64,000 nt of DNA from Acidobacteriota bacterium (GCA_026393675.1 JAPKZQ010000015.1:62001-126000); one strand, 5' to 3'. Positions 2,185 through 50,486 are shown, counted from the stretch's first letter. Program-made: numbers and translations. The notes: generated by a model not told the origin, from the sequence alone.

Positions 2185-3189
2185 TCATACATCTCCCATG
2201 ACAACAGACCTCGCGGCCGACGCGAGGCCTGTTACTTGTGCACGCTCCCAGGCGAGCGCCGCGATCGCGGTGTCCTGAAAGCCCACGCCGGTCAGATCGC
2301 AGATGGTGATCTGATCGTCGCCGGTCCGGCCCGGTTTCTGGCCGGCGACAATCTCGCCGAGTTGAGCCCACACGTCGGATTCCTGCAGCAGGCCCAATCG
2401 CAGCGCATGCGACAGTTCACCGAAGCGGGCGCACTGAGACAGTCGATCAACAACCACGAGATCCGCACGCCGGAGACAGGCCGCCTCGAGTTCCTGCTTG
2501 CCCGGTGTGTCGGCCCCGAGCGCCGTGATGTGAAGTCCCGGCTTCAGCCACTCGGCACGCACGATGGGTTCACGCGCCGGCGTGGCCGTGATGAGCACGT
2601 CGGCTTCGCGACAGACCTCGGCTGCCCCGGCCGCCACCGTCGCCGTGATGCCCAGCGCCGCGCGCATCTCGGCGCAGTAGCTCTCGAGGCCGACCCCGTC
2701 CGGGCTCCACGCCAGCAGGCGCCTGAAGGGCCTGACTTCCTTGAGACACCGCACCTGGTGCCGGGCCTGCACGCCCGATCCAATCACGCCCACCGTGGTG
2801 ATCTCACGCCTGGCGAGACACTCGGCCGCGACCGCGCCGGCCGCGCCCGTGCGAATGTCGGTAAGAAACCCGTTGTCGAAGAGCAGGGCCACCGGCATCC
2901 CCGTCTGTGCATCGAACAGGGCCATCAGCCCGGACCCGGTTGGCAACCCGAGGGCCGGATTGTCGTAGAATCCTGAGGCCACCTTTACCGCCACCACTGG
3001 TACGCCCTCCACCCAGGCCGTCTTGACGTGGAATTCTCCATTGGTGCCGGGGATGGAAAGATTGATGACGGCCGGCACGCTGGTGCGGCCCTCGCCATCG
3101 GCGCGAAACGCCGCGCGCACAGCGGTGATGGCGTCGGCGGGAGAGACGCAGGCGCGAAGGGCCTGTTCGTCGATGATGGGGAATGCCAT
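2185..3189 (-). CDS. Ornithine cyclodeaminase / mu-crystallin family NAD(P)-dependent enzyme
   Basis: This 334-residue protein belongs to the family that includes ornithine cyclodeaminase, alanine dehydrogenase (archaeal type), ketimine reductases and lysine cyclodeaminase. The substrate-binding half contains VKVASGFYDNPALGLP and the glycine-rich dinucleotide site is VGVIGSGVQARHQ, followed by DLVVVD and a conserved C-terminal ICDLTGVGFQDTAIA. The start MAFPIID at 3189 is chosen because homologous sequence begins there; the open frame continues 68 residues upstream, but that stretch is low-complexity and antisense to a small signal-peptide ORF. Because arginine/ornithine genes are 20 kb away and not linked, the substrate cannot be assigned. 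It converges on the tRNA gene. Confidence 0.85.
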   Translation of the reverse strand: MAFPIIDEQALRACVSPADAITAVRAAFRADGEGRTSVPAVINLSIPGTNGEFHVKTAWVEGVPVVAVKVASGFYDNPALGLPTGSGLMALFDAQTGMPVALLFDNGFLTDIRTGAAGAVAAECLARREITTVGVIGSGVQARHQVRCLKEVRPFRRLLAWSPDGVGLESYCAEMRAALGITATVAAGAAEVCREADVLITATPAREPIVRAEWLKPGLHITALGADTPGKQELEAACLRRADLVVVDRLSQCARFGELSHALRLGLLQESDVWAQLGEIVAGQKPGRTGDDQITICDLTGVGFQDTAIAALAWERAQVTGLASAARSVVMGDV

Positions 3190-3244
3190 TTGCCTATTGT
3201 CCGGCCGAAACCTCGGCGGTGGCAAGGAGCAAGGAGTGATACTC

Positions 3245-3361
3245 ATGATCCGGGAACGTCTGATCCGCGTGATTGCCATCACAACGCTCGCCGCCGTGGC
3301 CGTTATCGGACTTGCTGCGCAGCAGGCCGCGCCGGCCGGCGACGCGACCTGCGTGCCATAA
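3245..3361 (+). CDS. Possible 38-residue secreted leader-like peptide or gene remnant
   Basis: A short frame encodes Met-Ile-Arg-Glu-Arg followed by a hydrophobic stretch (VIAITTLAAVAVIGLAAQQ) that looks like a signal peptide ending at an Ala-Gln cleavage site, then stops after about 12 more residues. A good ribosome-binding sequence, AAGGAGCAAGGAG, lies upstream. It looks like the 5' end of a secreted-protein gene whose body is missing, cut off near the palindromic repeat. It could equally be a chance frame. I recognise no family. Confidence 0.3.
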   Translation: MIRERLIRVIAITTLAAVAVIGLAAQQAAPAGDATCVP

Positions 3362-3378
3362 TGATGGGGACGGTTATC

Positions 3379-3521
3379 TGGAGACGATTTCATGACCTGC
3401 GTATCGCGGCCTGATTTCGCCGCAAGAACGGGTCATGAAACCGGTTGTCATCTGCGTACCGCGGCGTAATCTCGCCGTCAGAACGGGTTTTGAAACCGGT
3501 TTCAGGGACGGTTTCGACCTG
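3379..3521. repeat. Palindromic intergenic repeat, copies B1, B2 and a partial third
   Basis: Tandem copies of the repeat described at 2024-2097. Unit B1 has arms GATTTCATGACC (3386-3397) and GGTCATGAAACC (3431-3442). Unit B2 reuses B1's right end as its degenerate left arm and ends in GAAACCGGTTTCAG near 3505. A further left half, GGACGGTTTCGACCTGCC, follows at 3506-3523. The arm sequence differs from copy A (TCATGA instead of TCAAAA) but still pairs, which suggests that the fold is kept. Confidence 0.75.
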
Positions 3522-3544
3522 CCACACGGGATGATCGCAATCAA

Positions 3545-4465
3545 ATGAAACGGATCTGTTTTATCGCGCTCATGGCGCTTTGTGCCTGGCCGCGCATCGA
3601 CGCCGCGGTGGCCCTGATGTGTGGCGTCGTGTTCAGCCTGGCCGTTGGCAACCCGTTCGCGCGCGAATCTGGCGCCTGGGCCAGGAAGCTCTTGCAAACC
3701 TCCGTCGTCGGCCTCGGCTTCGGCGTGGGCATCAGCCAGGTGCTGCGTGAAAGCCAGCACTCAATCCTCTACACGATGATCGGCATCACGCTGACCCTGC
3801 TGATGGGCGCGGCGATCGGAAAGTGGCTCCGTGTGGAGGCGCGCACGTCGCAACTGATCTCGTTTGGCACCGCGATTTGCGGAGGAAGCGCGATTGCGGC
3901 GATGGCGCCCGTGATCAAGGCCCGGAGCGAGGAAGTCGCCGTGGCGCTGGCGACGGTGTTCATGCTGAACGCCGTGGCGCTCCTGATTTTTCCGGCCATC
4001 GGCCATCTCCTCTCCCTCAGTCCGGGTGCGTTCGGGCTGTGGTCGGCGCTGGCGATTCACGACACGAGCAGCGTGGTTGGCGCCGCGTCTTCCTTCGGGC
4101 CGGCGGCCTTGGCCACGGCCACCACGGTCAAGCTGACGCGGGCGTTGTGGATCATGCCGTGCGTTCTGGTGTACGCGCTCATCAGGAAGTCGGACCAGCG
4201 TGTCACGGTCCCGCTGTTCATCGTCGGATTTATCGCGGCAGCGGTCATCCGGTCAGTCCTGCCGCAGTATCTTGGCACCTGGGACGGGATCGCGTTTGTG
4301 GCGCGGCGGCTCCTCGTGGTGACCCTGTTCCTGATTGGCGCTGGAGTCAGCCGCGAGACCCTGAAGAAGGTTGGATTCCGCCCGATGCTGCAGGGCGTGA
4401 CGCTCTGGGTGATCGTCAGCTCGGTGACGCTCGCCGCGATCTTTTATCACCTGATCGGAGACTAG
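3545..4465 (+). CDS. YeiH/UPF0324 family putative sulfate (anion) exporter
   Basis: A 306-residue polytopic inner-membrane protein with about ten hydrophobic segments. It carries family signatures: GTAICGGSAIAAMAPVI near residue 110, AIHDTSSVVGAA near residue 170, and a C-terminal LFLIGAGVSRETL. Members of this family (E. coli YeiH) are annotated as putative sulfate exporters; the substrate has little experimental basis. The start at 3545 overlaps a membrane segment directly, so a slightly earlier start is possible. The gene is flanked on both sides by the palindromic repeat, and its stop codon (4463-4465) touches the downstream copy. It has no obvious operon partner. Confidence 0.85.
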   Translation: MKRICFIALMALCAWPRIDAAVALMCGVVFSLAVGNPFARESGAWARKLLQTSVVGLGFGVGISQVLRESQHSILYTMIGITLTLLMGAAIGKWLRVEARTSQLISFGTAICGGSAIAAMAPVIKARSEEVAVALATVFMLNAVALLIFPAIGHLLSLSPGAFGLWSALAIHDTSSVVGAASSFGPAALATATTVKLTRALWIMPCVLVYALIRKSDQRVTVPLFIVGFIAAAVIRSVLPQYLGTWDGIAFVARRLLVVTLFLIGAGVSRETLKKVGFRPMLQGVTLWVIVSSVTLAAIFYHLIGD

Positions 4466-43634: not shown

Positions 43635-46373
43635 CTATCGCACGTAGATCGCCGAGTTGAAGACAACGCGGAACGTCGCAAACGGCTGGCCGCGCCACTG
43701 GGGACGGAAGCCGAGCAGCACCACGTGCCCCTTGTCGAGCTCAATGTCGAGCGCCGCTGCTTTGCCCTGAAGGTACTTCTCGCCAATCAGGTAGCCGGAC
43801 TGCAACGGCGACCCGGTGTCGGCGTACTTGGCGAGAATCGTGCCCTTAAATCCAACCTGGGGCTCGTACACTGGGCTGCCGTCGACAAACACCGCAGAGG
43901 TCTCGGCCATGCCGGCCATCACCGGGTGGGTCGGGTCGGTCTTCACGTTGACAATTGATCCACGCAGGAAGAACTCCTCGGGCTTCAGGCCCTCGACGAC
44001 GTTTTTCACGGGCAGCTTGAACTGCTGAATCGCGAACCTGCAGGCCGAGTTGAAGCAGACCACGGTGCCGCCGTCTCGGACGAACGTCTCGAATGACTGC
44101 AGGTCGGCCTGCGTCAGAGCGTAGGCGTACTCGGGACGCACCGCCCGGCCCGACCCGCCGCCGCGCCCGCCCTGGCCGCGGCCGCCACCCTGCCCACCGC
44201 CCGCTGCTGGCGCGGCTGCTCCGGCCTCTCCGCGCGCGCCGGTCTGGCCGCCGCCCTCAACCGGGATCCGCGCATCGTCAGCGAGGATGATGCTGTCGAC
44301 CTTGTCGCGAAGCGGCGCGTGGAAGTCCTCCGGATGGAGGCTGACGAATTCGAAGCCGTACTGCTCGAGGAGCCACCGTGTCCACCCTTCGTCCATGCTG
44401 CCGGCCCACGGCTGATAGAGCCCGATGCGCGGCTTCTTCAACGCCACGCCTGAGGCTGCCGTGCGTTCGGCGACCAGCGCGAGCGACTTGACCAGGTCGG
44501 ATTGGGCGGCATCGGAAAGTCCGGTGATGATGTAACGCGCACCAGCCCCCGGGGCGCCGGCGGCGAACTGGACGCTGGCGCCGAGCTTCCAGGCGCGCGT
44601 GATGGCTCGAAAGGCGTTGTTCTGCGCGGGATCCACGGCAAGTGCCGGGCCGCTGCCAGACGTTCTGCCTGCCGGCGGAACAATGGCTGCGGCTGCGGAA
44701 TTCGAATCGAACCCGATGCCCGGCACGCTGTCAAACGGCGCCGGGTCGGCGGAGGTTGTCATGTTGTACGGCGTGGGTCTGGCCGTCGGCGTCGGCATCG
44801 CGCCAAGCACCTTCATCTTCCCGCGCATCTCGTCTGTGAGTGGGCTGGCAACCGTGGTGATCTTCACGCCCATCTGCAACGGCAGCGTCCAACCGGCCGC
44901 GTCGTAGGGCCTGAGGGGCGGGCCGCCCGGGTACTGGCGCAAGTCCGGGTACTTCTGCGCATTGAACAATTCGCGCGCCATCGCGCCGAATTCCTGATCG
45001 GTCGGCACCACCCATGTGCCGGTCGCATAGGTGACCTTGTCAAGCGTGACCGGTGCCGTCAGTTGCGACACGCGCACGCCGCCGAAGGCGAGGCGACGGA
45101 GCATCTCGACTGCCGCGACGGGGTCGCGCTGATCCTGCGGAATCATGTAGGCGTACGGCGCTGTCTTTCTGCCCGCGGCAATCTGATCCCGGCCCGCCTG
45201 GTAGCGGTTGTAGAGCAGCGATTCCCGGTACTTGGCCGCGAACTCGAGCGTCGAGATCGCCGCCGTCTCGTTGTAGGCCACCGCATCACCCAATCGCCAC
45301 CACCCGCCCGGCCACGGGCTCGAGTAGAGGCTCTGCGGTCTCAGGTCGCGATAGCTCTCGGGAAGATCGTTGAGGGTGTACTCGCGAGGCGCGGCCATGT
45401 TGCCTGCCGTCTCGGTCCAGAACGCCGGGATGTTCTTGAACGCCGGCGCGTAGTCGACGTAACCCGGGTACCATGCGTCAAAGGCGATGCCCATGTGTGT
45501 GGCGCCGACCTGTCCCCGTTCCTCGAGGCTTTTCGCGATAGCCATGCCAATCATGTTGATCTCGCGCGACACGAGATACGGTGCGTCGAGGCCGACCGGC
45601 TCGGAGAAGGGCGGCAGCCAGATGCGCGTCGGGAACGGCGCCGACTGGTGGAACACATAAATGATGTTCGGCTCCCACTGGCGCCAAAAGTGTTCCATCA
45701 CGCGCGACTCGATCATGTTCAGCATGTACGCGTCGCGGTTGTTGTCGTGACCGACATACTCCTGATACAGGCGGGGCAGGCCCGACTGTTCATAGGGCGT
45801 CCCTGCGTTCTTCGCGAGCCACTCGCCCACCATCTGCTGGCCGTCGGGGTTCATCGTCGGCCACAACATGACGATGTCGTTGTCGAGGATTTCCTTGATG
45901 GCGGGATCGGCCGCGCGGTTGACGAGGTCGTAGGCGAGCTGCAGCGTCATCTGCGCGCCAGCCACTTCGGTGGCGTGACAGCCGCCATCGAGGTGCACGA
46001 ACGCCTTGCCTTCGCGCGCGAACCGGCGTGCATCATCTTCGGAGAGACCCTGGGGATGCGCGAGGCGCTGGGCGATCTCGCGGTACCGATCTACTTTGTC
46101 GAGATTCTTCGGGTTCGAGATGAGGGCGAAATACATGACGCGCCCATTCGTCGTCTTTCCGGCCTCCACGAGCCTGATTGACGAGCTGGCTGCGGCGAGT
46201 TTCTTCAGGTAGCTGATGGCCTGGTCGTAGGTTGCCAGTTTGTTGTCGGCACCGGGTTTGAATCCCAGGACCGACTCCGGCGTGGGCAACGCCCGGGACG
46301 CCGCCACCAGGACGGCCTGGCTTGCGAGCACCACGACAACAAGCAGAGTCGCTACCTTACGCATCATCGTCAT
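43635..46373 (-). CDS. M14 family zinc carboxypeptidase-like protein, secreted, with GR-rich insert
   Basis: A 912-residue secreted protein. The signal peptide (residues 5-25) precedes the M14 domain, in which zinc ligands His133 and Glu136 (GGCHATEV, HxxE) are visible, with NPDGQQM downstream and the later HQSAPF and TETAGN as candidates for the third ligand and catalytic Glu. The middle part (residues 400-800) has a class I glutamine-amidotransferase-like look (RIGLYQPW, FVRDGGTVVCFN) and a Gly/Arg/Gln-rich insert (GGQGGGRGQGGRGGG). It probably cleaves C-terminal residues from peptides. It is divergent from the S9-M1 fusion gene and shares its promoter region. Confidence 0.87.
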   Translation of the reverse strand: MTMMRKVATLLVVVVLASQAVLVAASRALPTPESVLGFKPGADNKLATYDQAISYLKKLAAASSSIRLVEAGKTTNGRVMYFALISNPKNLDKVDRYREIAQRLAHPQGLSEDDARRFAREGKAFVHLDGGCHATEVAGAQMTLQLAYDLVNRAADPAIKEILDNDIVMLWPTMNPDGQQMVGEWLAKNAGTPYEQSGLPRLYQEYVGHDNNRDAYMLNMIESRVMEHFWRQWEPNIIYVFHQSAPFPTRIWLPPFSEPVGLDAPYLVSREINMIGMAIAKSLEERGQVGATHMGIAFDAWYPGYVDYAPAFKNIPAFWTETAGNMAAPREYTLNDLPESYRDLRPQSLYSSPWPGGWWRLGDAVAYNETAAISTLEFAAKYRESLLYNRYQAGRDQIAAGRKTAPYAYMIPQDQRDPVAAVEMLRRLAFGGVRVSQLTAPVTLDKVTYATGTWVVPTDQEFGAMARELFNAQKYPDLRQYPGGPPLRPYDAAGWTLPLQMGVKITTVASPLTDEMRGKMKVLGAMPTPTARPTPYNMTTSADPAPFDSVPGIGFDSNSAAAAIVPPAGRTSGSGPALAVDPAQNNAFRAITRAWKLGASVQFAAGAPGAGARYIITGLSDAAQSDLVKSLALVAERTAASGVALKKPRIGLYQPWAGSMDEGWTRWLLEQYGFEFVSLHPEDFHAPLRDKVDSIILADDARIPVEGGGQTGARGEAGAAAPAAGGGQGGGRGQGGRGGGSGRAVRPEYAYALTQADLQSFETFVRDGGTVVCFNSACRFAIQQFKLPVKNVVEGLKPEEFFLRGSIVNVKTDPTHPVMAGMAETSAVFVDGSPVYEPQVGFKGTILAKYADTGSPLQSGYLIGEKYLQGKAAALDIELDKGHVVLLGFRPQWRGQPFATFRVVFNSAIYVR

Positions 46374-46493
46374 TCCCCCTGCGCGGTACCCTATCGTCGA
46401 GCGGCCTCAACTGCAAGCCGGTTTGTCGGCTTCCCTGCATTTCGACCCCGAAAACACGGGTATGATGGCGGGGCCAAATTGGGGAGATCGTCC

Positions 46494-49400
46494 ATGTCAT
46501 CACCTGCTCATCGAAGGCTTGTGCCCGCGCTTGTTGTCCTGTTTTGTGGATGTGTTGCTGTCGCGCCGGGGATGGCGCAGCCGGCCGGGCCAGCGGCGCA
46601 GCGGCAGATCACGGCCGCCGACTACGCGCGCGCCGAGAAGTTCCTCGGACCCTCCGTCAACCCACTCGTGATAGGGGGAACCGTCGCGGCCACATGGCTG
46701 CCCGCCGAGCGGTTCTGGTACCGGAGCACCACGGCAACCGGATTCGAGTACGTGCTGGTGGATCCGGCGAACCGGACGCGGACGCCGTTGTTTGACCATG
46801 CAAAGGTGGCTGCGGCACTGTCGACCGCGGCCGGCGGCAAGTACGACCCGCAGCGTCTGGCGTTGGACTCGCTTGAACTCTCAGAGGATGGCAAGACCAT
46901 CTCGTTCAACGTGGATGCGCGCCGCTGGTCGTGCGACGTGATGGGCACGGCCTGCAGCGCGACGGGAGCCGCCACGACAGGACGGGGGGTTGGTGGTGGA
47001 GGAAGAGGTGCAGGTGGTCGCGGAGGCCGCGGCGGCACGGGCAGCGCAGCCAACAACGCAGTGGCATCGCCGGACGGGAAGCGGGCAGTCTTCATCCGCG
47101 ATTGGAACCTGTGGGTGCGCGACGTGGCGACCGGCCAGGAGCGCCAGCTCACCACCGACGGCGTGAAGTACTTCGGCTACGCCACCGACAACGCCGGCTG
47201 GAGCAGCAGCGATCGCGCGGTCGTGCTGTGGTCTCCCGACTCGACGAAGGTCGCCACCTTCCAGCAGGACGAGCGCGAGGTCGGTGAGATGTACCTCGTC
47301 AACACGCCCACCAATCCGGTCGGTCACCCGACGCTGCGCGTCTCGAAGTTCCCGCTGCCCGGCGATCCCGTGATGGCCATGATCCACCGGGTGATCATCG
47401 ACGTGGACTCGGGAAAGGTTACGCGCTTCCAGATGCCGCCCGACTATCATCGCGCCACCCTCGGCGACGACCTCTCGCTGCGCGACATGCAGTGGAGCCC
47501 GGACGCCTCGCAACTGGCCTTCGCGTCGGTGTCACGCGATCACAAGCAGGCGGTCGTGCGTGTGGCCGATGTCGCAACCGGCGCGGTGCGCACGGTGTTC
47601 GACGAGACGGTCAAGACGCAGCACGAGGCACGGGCGGGATGGCACGTGCTCTGGGCCAGCAGGGAAGTGATCTGGTATTCCGAGCGTGACAACTGGGGAC
47701 ACCTTTATCTCTACGACCTGACGACAGGCGCGCTGAAGCACCAGATCACGCGGGGCGAAGGCCCCGTGATGCAACTGCTCAGGATCGACGAGAAGGCCAG
47801 AATCGTCTGGTTCGTCGCGCAAGGACGCGACAAAGGGGAGGACCCGTACTTCAGGCATGTGTACCGCATCGGTCTGGACGGGACCAATGACACCGCGCTC
47901 ACTCCGGACTCTGGAGACCATTCCGTCCAGCTGTCGCCATCGGGCCGCTACTTGATCGATACAATGTCGACGCCCGAACGCGAACCGGCGGTGACACTGC
48001 GCGATGGCGACGGCAAGCCCGTCATGCCGGTCGAGAAAGCGGATATCTCCAGACTGCTCGCCACCGGCTGGAAGCCGCCGATCCCCATCACGATGACCGC
48101 GCACGACGGCAAGACCGACATCTACGGCCTGATGTTCCGCCCGACCAATTTCGATCCCACGAAGAAGTACCCGATCGTCAACAACGTCTATCCCGGGCCG
48201 CAGACCGGCAGCACGGGCAGTCGCGCCTTTGCCGCCGCCAGAGGCGACCGGCAGGCCCTCGCCGAACTCGGCTTCATTGTCGTCACCATTGATGGAATGG
48301 GCACGCCGGGCCGATCCAAGGCGTTTCAGGATGCGTATTACGGCGCGATGGGGCGCGACAACACGATTCCGGACCAGATTGCCGGCATGACGCAGCTCGC
48401 GCAGAAGTACCCGTGGATCGATCTCGACCGGGCCGGGATCTGGGGGCATTCCGGCGGCGGATTCGCCACGACCACGGCGATGTTCCGGTTCCCGGACTTC
48501 TTCAAAGTGGGCATCGCGGAGTCGGGCAATCACGACCAGCGGTTGAACGAAGACGACTGGGGCGAGCGCTATCAGGGGCTCGTCGTGCACAACCCAGACG
48601 GCACCGACAACTACGACGCCGAGGCGAACCAGAACTTCGCGAAAAGCCTCAAGGGGCACCTGCTGCTGGCGCACGGCACGATGGATACCAACGTGCCGCC
48701 GTACCAGACGATGCTCATCGCAGATGCGCTCATCAAGGCGAACAAGGACTTCGATCTGCTGATGCTGCCAAACCAGAACCACGGGTACGGCAGTGCGTCG
48801 GCATACATGATGCGACGCCGGTGGGATTACTTCGTCAGGTGGCTTCACGGCACCGAGCCGCCAAAGGAATACCAGATGCAGGGGCAGGCACAAGCGCAGG
48901 CGCCGCCATCACCACAGACGCCGCCGCAACCTGCCGCACCGACGCGATCCGACATCCTCCGGGGCGAATATGGGCCGTATCGCGCCAACAACGACCTGCT
49001 GTCGTACAACCTGGACGTGCGCGTCGATCCAGAGAAGAAATTCATCAGCGGGAAGAACACGATCCGGTTCCGGATGCTCCGCGACGATACCCGCATCCAG
49101 CTCGATCTGTTCGCGAACCTGAACGTCGACAAGATTCTGCTCGGCAACGTTGAGCTCAAGTACCAGCGCGAGTTGAACGCGGTGTTCGTGGACTTCCCGG
49201 AGACGCTCAGGAAGAACCGTGTGTACGCGGTCGAGTTCTACTATTCCGGTTCGCCAGTCGAGACCGGGCGATTCGGCGGCTTCACGTTCCGGAAGGACCC
49301 GGCGGGCCGTCATTGGATCACCACCTCGTGCCAGGGCCCTGGCGCGAGCGTCTGGTGGCCCAACAAGGATCAGCAGCGCGACGAAGTGGAGAACATGCGC

Positions 49401-50486
49401 CTGAGCGTGTCGGTGCCGACCGATCTGGTCGACGCGTCCAACGGGCAGTTGCTGGGCAAGACCGACCTGGGAGATGGCTACACGCGCTACGACTGGCAGA
49501 TTCATTACCCGATCAACAGCTACAGCGTGTCGCTCAACATCGGCGCCTACGTGCACTTCAGTGACACGCTCGGCGGGCTTCCGCTCGATTTCTACGCGCT
49601 GCCCGAGGATCTGGACAAGGCGAAGCGCCAGTTCGCGCAGGCGAAGGGAATGCTGGAGGCCTTCCAGAAGTACTTCGGCCCCTATCCGTTCCCCAAGGAC
49701 GGTTACAAGCTGATCCAGGTGCCCTACTCAGGGATGGAGCATCAGAGCGCCGTCACCTACGGCAACCGTTTCGCCAATGGATATCTCGAGCGCGACTGGA
49801 CGGGCGTCGGCATCAGCACGAGATTCGACTTCATCATCATCCACGAGAGCGCGCACGAGTGGTTTGGCAACAGCATCACGGCAGCCGACGTGTGCGACGA
49901 ATGGATCCATGAGGGGTGGGCGACGTACCTCGAAGGCGTGTACGTAGAGCACATGTTCGGCAAGGCGGACGCCTTGAAGTACGTGAATGGCTACAAGACG
50001 AAGGTCAAAAACCGCGAGCCGATCATCACGGCGTGCGGCATCAACAGGACGCCGTCGCAGGACATGTATTTCAAGGGCGCGCTCTTCATCAACACGCTCC
50101 GCAGCATCGTTAATGACGATGGGCGATGGTGGAAGCTGATGCGCGAGTTCTACGGACGCTTCAAGTACCAGAACATCACTACCGGTGACGTGGTGGCGTT
50201 CTTCAACAAGAACACCGGCAGGGACCTGACGCCGATCTTCGACCAGTACCTCCGGCGCACCGATCTGCCGACACTGGAGTTGCAATTTGAGGAGAGCGCT
50301 GGCAAGGTGTCGTATCGGTGGAAAGTCGACGAGAAGGCGTTCGCGATGCCGGTGAAAGTCGGCAGGAAGGACGCGTGGCAGCTCATCGAGCCCACCACGG
50401 AGTGGAAGACCATCGCCCTGGGGATGAAGATAGTGGAGTTCGACGTGGCGACCGATCTGTATTACATCAATGTCTCCAGGAAGTGA
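46494..50486 (+). CDS. Secreted S9 (DPP-IV-like) - M1 aminopeptidase fusion protein
   Basis: A 1330-residue secreted double protease. The signal peptide (about residues 6-28) leads into a DPP-IV-type beta-propeller with a Gly/Arg-rich insert at about 160-180, then an alpha/beta hydrolase with catalytic Ser653 (GHSGGG), Asp731 (GTMDTNV) and His763 (QNHGYG). A Gln/Ala/Pro linker (about 795-820) joins an M1 metalloprotease with HESAHE (His1117, Glu1118, His1121) and Glu1140, exactly 18 residues further on. The exopeptidase motif is GMEH instead of GAMEN. Both active sites are complete. The fusion could remove dipeptides and single residues from one peptide. GGGGAG precedes the ATG at 46494. Confidence 0.9.
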   Translation: MSSPAHRRLVPALVVLFCGCVAVAPGMAQPAGPAAQRQITAADYARAEKFLGPSVNPLVIGGTVAATWLPAERFWYRSTTATGFEYVLVDPANRTRTPLFDHAKVAAALSTAAGGKYDPQRLALDSLELSEDGKTISFNVDARRWSCDVMGTACSATGAATTGRGVGGGGRGAGGRGGRGGTGSAANNAVASPDGKRAVFIRDWNLWVRDVATGQERQLTTDGVKYFGYATDNAGWSSSDRAVVLWSPDSTKVATFQQDEREVGEMYLVNTPTNPVGHPTLRVSKFPLPGDPVMAMIHRVIIDVDSGKVTRFQMPPDYHRATLGDDLSLRDMQWSPDASQLAFASVSRDHKQAVVRVADVATGAVRTVFDETVKTQHEARAGWHVLWASREVIWYSERDNWGHLYLYDLTTGALKHQITRGEGPVMQLLRIDEKARIVWFVAQGRDKGEDPYFRHVYRIGLDGTNDTALTPDSGDHSVQLSPSGRYLIDTMSTPEREPAVTLRDGDGKPVMPVEKADISRLLATGWKPPIPITMTAHDGKTDIYGLMFRPTNFDPTKKYPIVNNVYPGPQTGSTGSRAFAAARGDRQALAELGFIVVTIDGMGTPGRSKAFQDAYYGAMGRDNTIPDQIAGMTQLAQKYPWIDLDRAGIWGHSGGGFATTTAMFRFPDFFKVGIAESGNHDQRLNEDDWGERYQGLVVHNPDGTDNYDAEANQNFAKSLKGHLLLAHGTMDTNVPPYQTMLIADALIKANKDFDLLMLPNQNHGYGSASAYMMRRRWDYFVRWLHGTEPPKEYQMQGQAQAQAPPSPQTPPQPAAPTRSDILRGEYGPYRANNDLLSYNLDVRVDPEKKFISGKNTIRFRMLRDDTRIQLDLFANLNVDKILLGNVELKYQRELNAVFVDFPETLRKNRVYAVEFYYSGSPVETGRFGGFTFRKDPAGRHWITTSCQGPGASVWWPNKDQQRDEVENMRLSVSVPTDLVDASNGQLLGKTDLGDGYTRYDWQIHYPINSYSVSLNIGAYVHFSDTLGGLPLDFYALPEDLDKAKRQFAQAKGMLEAFQKYFGPYPFPKDGYKLIQVPYSGMEHQSAVTYGNRFANGYLERDWTGVGISTRFDFIIIHESAHEWFGNSITAADVCDEWIHEGWATYLEGVYVEHMFGKADALKYVNGYKTKVKNREPIITACGINRTPSQDMYFKGALFINTLRSIVNDDGRWWKLMREFYGRFKYQNITTGDVVAFFNKNTGRDLTPIFDQYLRRTDLPTLELQFEESAGKVSYRWKVDEKAFAMPVKVGRKDAWQLIEPTTEWKTIALGMKIVEFDVATDLYYINVSRK

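Follow-up and report, generated by a model that had tools for sequence, protein, structure and literature searches.

A gene joining an S9 serine peptidase and an M1 metallopeptidase in an Acidobacteriota bacterium and other Vicinamibacterales

The fusion gene and its junction

An uninterrupted open frame was found at 46494-50486 (+) of the window, the 64,000-nucleotide stretch of DNA from an Acidobacteriota bacterium that was analyzed in this work. The gene begins with an ATG at 46494, ends with a stop codon at 50484-50486 and comprises 1330 codons; a Shine-Dalgarno-like GGGGAG (46481-46486, +) is located 7 nt 5′ of the ATG. Based on Pfam annotation, four domains follow one another from the N- to the C-terminus of the single 1330-residue chain: DPPIV_N (residues 186-495; 47049-47978, +; 2e-62), Peptidase_S9 (residues 586-785; 48249-48848, +; 2e-44), Peptidase_M1_N (residues 837-1010; 49002-49523, +; 9e-9) and Peptidase_M1 (residues 1048-1252; 49635-50249, +; 6e-21). 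All four matches exceed the curated cut-offs. An earlier sequence-only reading had described the product as a secreted S9-M1 fusion, and the open frame, the order of the four domains and the same architecture in six genomes establish that the fusion is genuine. The claim of secretion agrees with the single signal-peptide-like N-terminus (residues 1-29; 46494-46580, +), judged by eye from its basic start, hydrophobic core and final ...GMAQ; this leader varies among orthologues.

The Pro/Gln/Ala linker proposed in the same reading was located at about residues 794-816 (48873-48941, +) and corresponds to the start of the mature protein in standalone M1 relatives. It is short, of low complexity and fast-evolving, being 42% identical to that of the related genome G034. 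The sequences of the leader and of the linker are less well conserved than those of the S9 core and the M1 half. As read from the sequences, standalone S9 relatives end just past PPKEY, and standalone M1 relatives begin with a leader of their own, after which come a Pro/Ala stretch and '..APTRADILRG'. At the junction of the fusion, the S9 end PPKEY.. continues straight into the Pro/Ala stretch of the M1 mature N-terminus. By this comparison, fusion removed the stop codon of S9, the DNA between the two genes and the leader of M1, a putative signal peptide.

Catalytic centers of the two halves

The AlphaFold model of the S9 half (pLDDT 89) has the dipeptidyl peptidase IV (DPP IV) fold, in which a beta-propeller (the DPPIV_N region) is combined with an alpha/beta-hydrolase carrying a Ser-Asp-His triad, and matches prolyl tripeptidyl aminopeptidase (2eep). 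The nucleophile Ser653 (GHSGGG; 48450-48452, +), Asp731 (48684-48686, +) and His763 (48780-48782, +) make up this triad. Together with Y566, N733 and E686, they are invariant in the 52 S9 orthologues. It should be noted that the N-terminal part of this half contains a Gly/Arg-rich low-complexity insert (residues 161-187; 46974-47054, +), predicted to be disordered, which is common to the window gene and G001 and is reduced in G034 and G089.

The closest known relative of the S9 half, by both sequence and structure (E 5e-82; TM 0.71/0.82), is the prolyl tripeptidyl aminopeptidase (PTP) of Porphyromonas gingivalis (MEROPS S09.017; 2d5l, 2eep, 2z3w). The two share the fold and the triad at about 25% identity, but the Porphyromonas enzyme has no M1 part, and the window S9 half has Ser at the Glu205 position and Gln and Asn in place of the S1-pocket Trp and Tyr. 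The bacterial dipeptidyl peptidases IV (PmDAP IV, 5yp1; SmDAP IV, 2ecf) likewise have the same fold, triad, oxyanion Tyr and P2-carbonyl Asn, whereas the window protein lacks their double-Glu motif, differs at four of six proline-pocket residues and has the M1 part added.

In the M1 half, the AlphaFold model (pLDDT 92.7) contains domains I and II, to which the two Pfam M1 domains correspond, and a C-terminal beta domain (50259-50483, +) similar to domain III of ERAP1/IRAP, after which the chain ends. The zinc site HESAH-x18-E (residues 1117-1140; 49842-49913, +) has the HExxH-x18-E form expected of M1 enzymes. Tyr1192 (50067-50069, +) occupies the position of the conserved M1 catalytic tyrosine and aligns with that of ERAP1. 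The residues H1117, E1118, H1121, E1140 and Y1192 are invariant in the 42 M1 orthologues. Thus, both catalytic centers are complete and conserved (the S9 triad in 52/52 rows, the M1 zinc site in 42/42), as the sequence-only reading had claimed, and its residue numbers (S653, D731, H763, GMEH 1080-1083, HESAH 1117-1121 and E1140) are exact.

At the place of the GxMEN motif, the M1 half has SGMEH (GMEH at residues 1080-1083; 49731-49742, +), in which Met and Glu are kept and Asn is replaced by His. The sequence-only reading was right that GMEH stands here instead of GAMEN, but overstated its importance. GMEHQ is found in 42/42 M1 rows, fused or unfused, from three phyla; the motif therefore marks a subfamily, not a novelty of the fusion, and was ruled out as a fusion-specific property. 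Two other M1 genes of the window genome have GGMEY, and a partial loss of GxMEN is known in other M1 sub-groups (PMC2241622).

Many M1 aminopeptidases are built of four domains, I-IV (PMC10343166). Domain IV was looked for in the M1 model and was absent. The idea that the S9 half substitutes for it was dropped, as standalone M1 orthologues of equal length also lack domain IV. The top profile match of the M1 half was Deinococcus M1dr (6a8z) and the top fold match was IRAP/ERAP1; all of these share the zinc site, the catalytic Tyr position, domains I and II and the III-like C-terminal beta domain. Compared with IRAP/ERAP1, the M1 half is only about 17-19% identical, has GMEH for GAMEN, lacks the C-terminal helical domain IV and is located behind an S9 peptidase. 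It likely acts as a single-residue aminopeptidase.

Fused and unfused relatives

The S9-M1 architecture was found in six Vicinamibacterales genomes representing three genera and two families of this one order. Intact fusions are present in G001, which belongs to the same genus as the window genome (87-88% identity), in G034 (73%) and in G089 (record JARKSS010000030.1, labelled Vicinamibacterales; 67%). The fusion of G014 (L060:364-3762, -) lacks about 180 propeller residues in-frame, and that of G051 is interrupted by the contig end. The gap in G014 is located between two similar short stretches and may be a real deletion or an assembly collapse. A search of 396 genomes of the phylum revealed no further fusions, the other listed M1 relatives being encoded in frames of 406-682 residues. 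In the samples searched, the fusion is thus rare and confined to two families of a single order. The gene context around it is conserved only within the genus (G001); G034 and G089 do not share it.

Between the window gene and that of G001, dN/dS was 0.08 for the S9 core and 0.10 for the M1 half. Strong purifying selection acts on both halves, which are therefore maintained.

Standalone orthologues of both halves were found in Acidobacteriota, Gemmatimonadota and Bacteroidota, with about 46-78% (S9) and 42-77% (M1) identity and the same invariant motifs. They differ from the fusion in being separate genes, in the leader of the M1 protein and, outside the clade holding the fusions, in the Tyr at S9 position 685. 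In some genomes the two genes are adjacent. In Polaribacter (L068), S9 (51-2381) is followed by M1 (2400-4049) after a gap of 18 nt; this locus was considered as a distant fusion (match 31-1323 in a frame of 1338) and rejected, given the TAA at 2379 and the separate ATG at 2400. Tandem S9-then-M1 genes are also present in the Gemmatimonadota G558, G773 and G822, and the flavobacterial G568 has the reverse order. In one Gemmatimonadota contig, a second, different M1-like gene (L132:3828-5909) is located immediately 5′ of the S9-M1 tandem.

Adjacency concerns a minority of genomes, namely 3 of the 40 Gemmatimonadota genomes with M1 and 2 of the 9 flavobacterial genomes with S9. Among 60 relatives of the window genome, S9 was present in 13/14 genomes with M1 and in 15/46 without it (Fisher p 1e-4, a statistic that ignores relatedness). 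The link between the two genes is not strict, since most genomes having both carry them on separate contigs or at a large distance from each other.

In the S9 tree, all the fusions tested fall into one fully supported clade of seven members, together with the unfused L066 and L007. The fusions do not group together in the M1 tree, but a single clade was not rejected (p-AU 0.066). The fusion may have arisen once, with subsequent splitting or transfer, or it may have arisen twice. It is worth noting that the unfused S9 gene L066 ends in a linker-like Pro/Gly-rich tail (L066:7230-7322, QPATGRGGNPPPSGVRIP). This tail may be a leftover linker from a later splitting of the fusion, a reading that is suggestive only.

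Proposed role of the fusion and its alternatives

On balance, we favor an inherited fusion of two exported N-terminal peptidases, in which an S9 step would precede trimming by M1 and the benefit would lie in co-export. Judging by the sequences, the protein is best read as a bifunctional enzyme, periplasmic or secreted, that trims peptides from the N-terminus. The gene could have been born when separately exported, functionally linked S9 and M1 genes, elsewhere arranged in tandem, lost the intervening stop codon and signal peptide. The signal-peptide-like leader would direct export, probably into the periplasm. A peptide would then be held in the cleft between the propeller and the hydrolase, where the S9 half may clip a di- or tripeptide from the N-terminus, preferring residues other than proline, and the M1 half may take single N-terminal residues from the remaining peptide or from the fragments set free. 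The advantage probably lies in fixed 1:1 co-export and co-localization, with amino-acid scavenging as the putative nutritional role. The 'efficient peptide digestor' of the sequence-only reading is plausible in this respect.

It is also conceivable, but rather unlikely, that two independent enzymes merely share a transcript and a signal peptide, the linker being cut after export, with no mechanistic consequence. This would suit a linker so short, simple and changeable, the existence of standalone forms of each half that are commoner than the fusion, and the unfused S9 genes L066 and L007 within the clade holding the fusions. However, the join is kept in six genomes, down to 67% identity, and a join without function should have been lost more frequently.

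The other alternatives concern the specificity of the S9 half. In PmDAP IV, Glu208-Glu209 (human Glu205-Glu206) form the double-Glu motif, which grips the substrate N-terminus (PMC5807507). In the window protein this place is taken by Ser237-Ser238 of the NAGW-SS segment (residues 233-238; 47190-47207, +), in which NAGW is invariant, and no Glu was found among the residues tallied there in the 52 orthologues. The P1-proline pocket of PmDAP IV consists of Asn614, Val639, Trp642, Tyr645, Tyr649 and Val692 (PMC5807507). The window S9 half has Gly654, Asn679, Gln682, Asn685, Trp689 and Val734 at these positions, so that four of the six residues are replaced (V639 to N679, W642 to Q682, Y645 to N685 and N614 to G654). 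Asn685 is shared by the whole S9 clade holding the fusions, while 47 of the 52 aligned orthologues have Tyr.

Both the S1 pocket and the N-terminus pocket include residues of the GNHDQRLNEDDWGE motif (residues 678-691; 48525-48566, +). Its E686 aligns with Glu636 of PTP, and the E636A structures 2z3w/2z3z carry Ala precisely there. We take Glu636 and Glu205 to be the N-terminus anchors of that enzyme (S09.017); in the S9 half, the equivalent of the first is invariant and the position of the second is Ser. E686 is also the counterpart of human DPP IV Asp663, and D687 and D688 leave the pocket acidic. Since the Glu636 equivalent is kept and the double-Glu motif and most of the proline pocket are absent, the S9 half is probably an N-terminal peptidase that binds the free amino group and has a polar pocket, not a proline pocket, with a non-proline preference.

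Somewhat less probable than the independent enzymes is an S9 half working as an endopeptidase or oligopeptidase that creates new N-termini for trimming by M1. The loss of the double-Glu anchor is consistent with it, and FAP offers a precedent, in which a less acidic N-terminus pocket (DPP IV Asp663 replaced) is accompanied by a gain of endopeptidase activity (PMC5807507). On the other hand, the invariance of E686 in all 52 orthologues and the acidic pocket with D687 and D688 favor a substrate with a free amino group. An ordinary DPP IV cutting after Pro or Ala is very unlikely. The top sequence and structure matches (bacterial DPP IV and PTP) and the retained triad, oxyanion Tyr and P2-carbonyl Asn would fit such an enzyme, but DPP IV specificity was rejected on the Ser-Ser at the double-Glu place and the four altered S1-pocket positions (PmDAP IV numbers, PMC5807507). 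The same residues speak against the 'dipeptide remover' of the sequence-only reading. Finally, an assembly or sequencing error merging two genes, a risk raised in that reading, is practically untenable and refuted by the orthologues, in which the same junction is intact and free of stop codons in independent assemblies.

Within the favored reading of two co-exported N-terminal peptidases, a closer cooperation of the two sites can be imagined, but we consider it doubtful. The M1 half, tethered by the linker, would finish S9-released peptides to amino acids, and the clade-only change of Tyr to Asn at 685 would retune the S9 pocket toward fragments preferred by M1.

A search of the open-access full-text literature for papers describing a fusion of S9 and M1 peptidases found none. 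Within this scope, the protein is a new arrangement of known parts, each half coming from a well-known enzyme family. It couples a serine and a zinc peptidase, which belong to unrelated catalytic classes, within a single exported chain. The tandem genes and the co-occurrence point to a functional partnership of a poorly characterized S9 subfamily (NAGW...GNHD..R..E.DW.E) with the GMEHQ M1 subfamily, both of which occur in several phyla. This gives a lead toward the substrates of both groups, for which the database names DPP IV and aminopeptidase N are probably misleading.

Members of the M1 subfamily were also found in other arrangements. In G003 (L057:4897-8226, -), the M1 orthologue is preceded by about 560 N-terminal residues without a Pfam match. 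In G091, G092 and G093 (L050:1842-5093 (+), L043 and L051), it is followed in-frame by a TPR-like and a DUF1223 / thioredoxin-like (CPPC) region. The domain of the GMEHQ M1 subfamily has entered fusions on more than one occasion.

Upstream of the fusion gene, a divergent gene (43635-46373, -; 912 aa) encodes a Peptidase_M14 carboxypeptidase-like protein, with 120 nt between the two start codons. With such a neighbor, peptides could be attacked at both ends. G001 retains the M14 gene, and in G014 a homologue (L060 6888-9407) is located about 3 kb away from the fusion.
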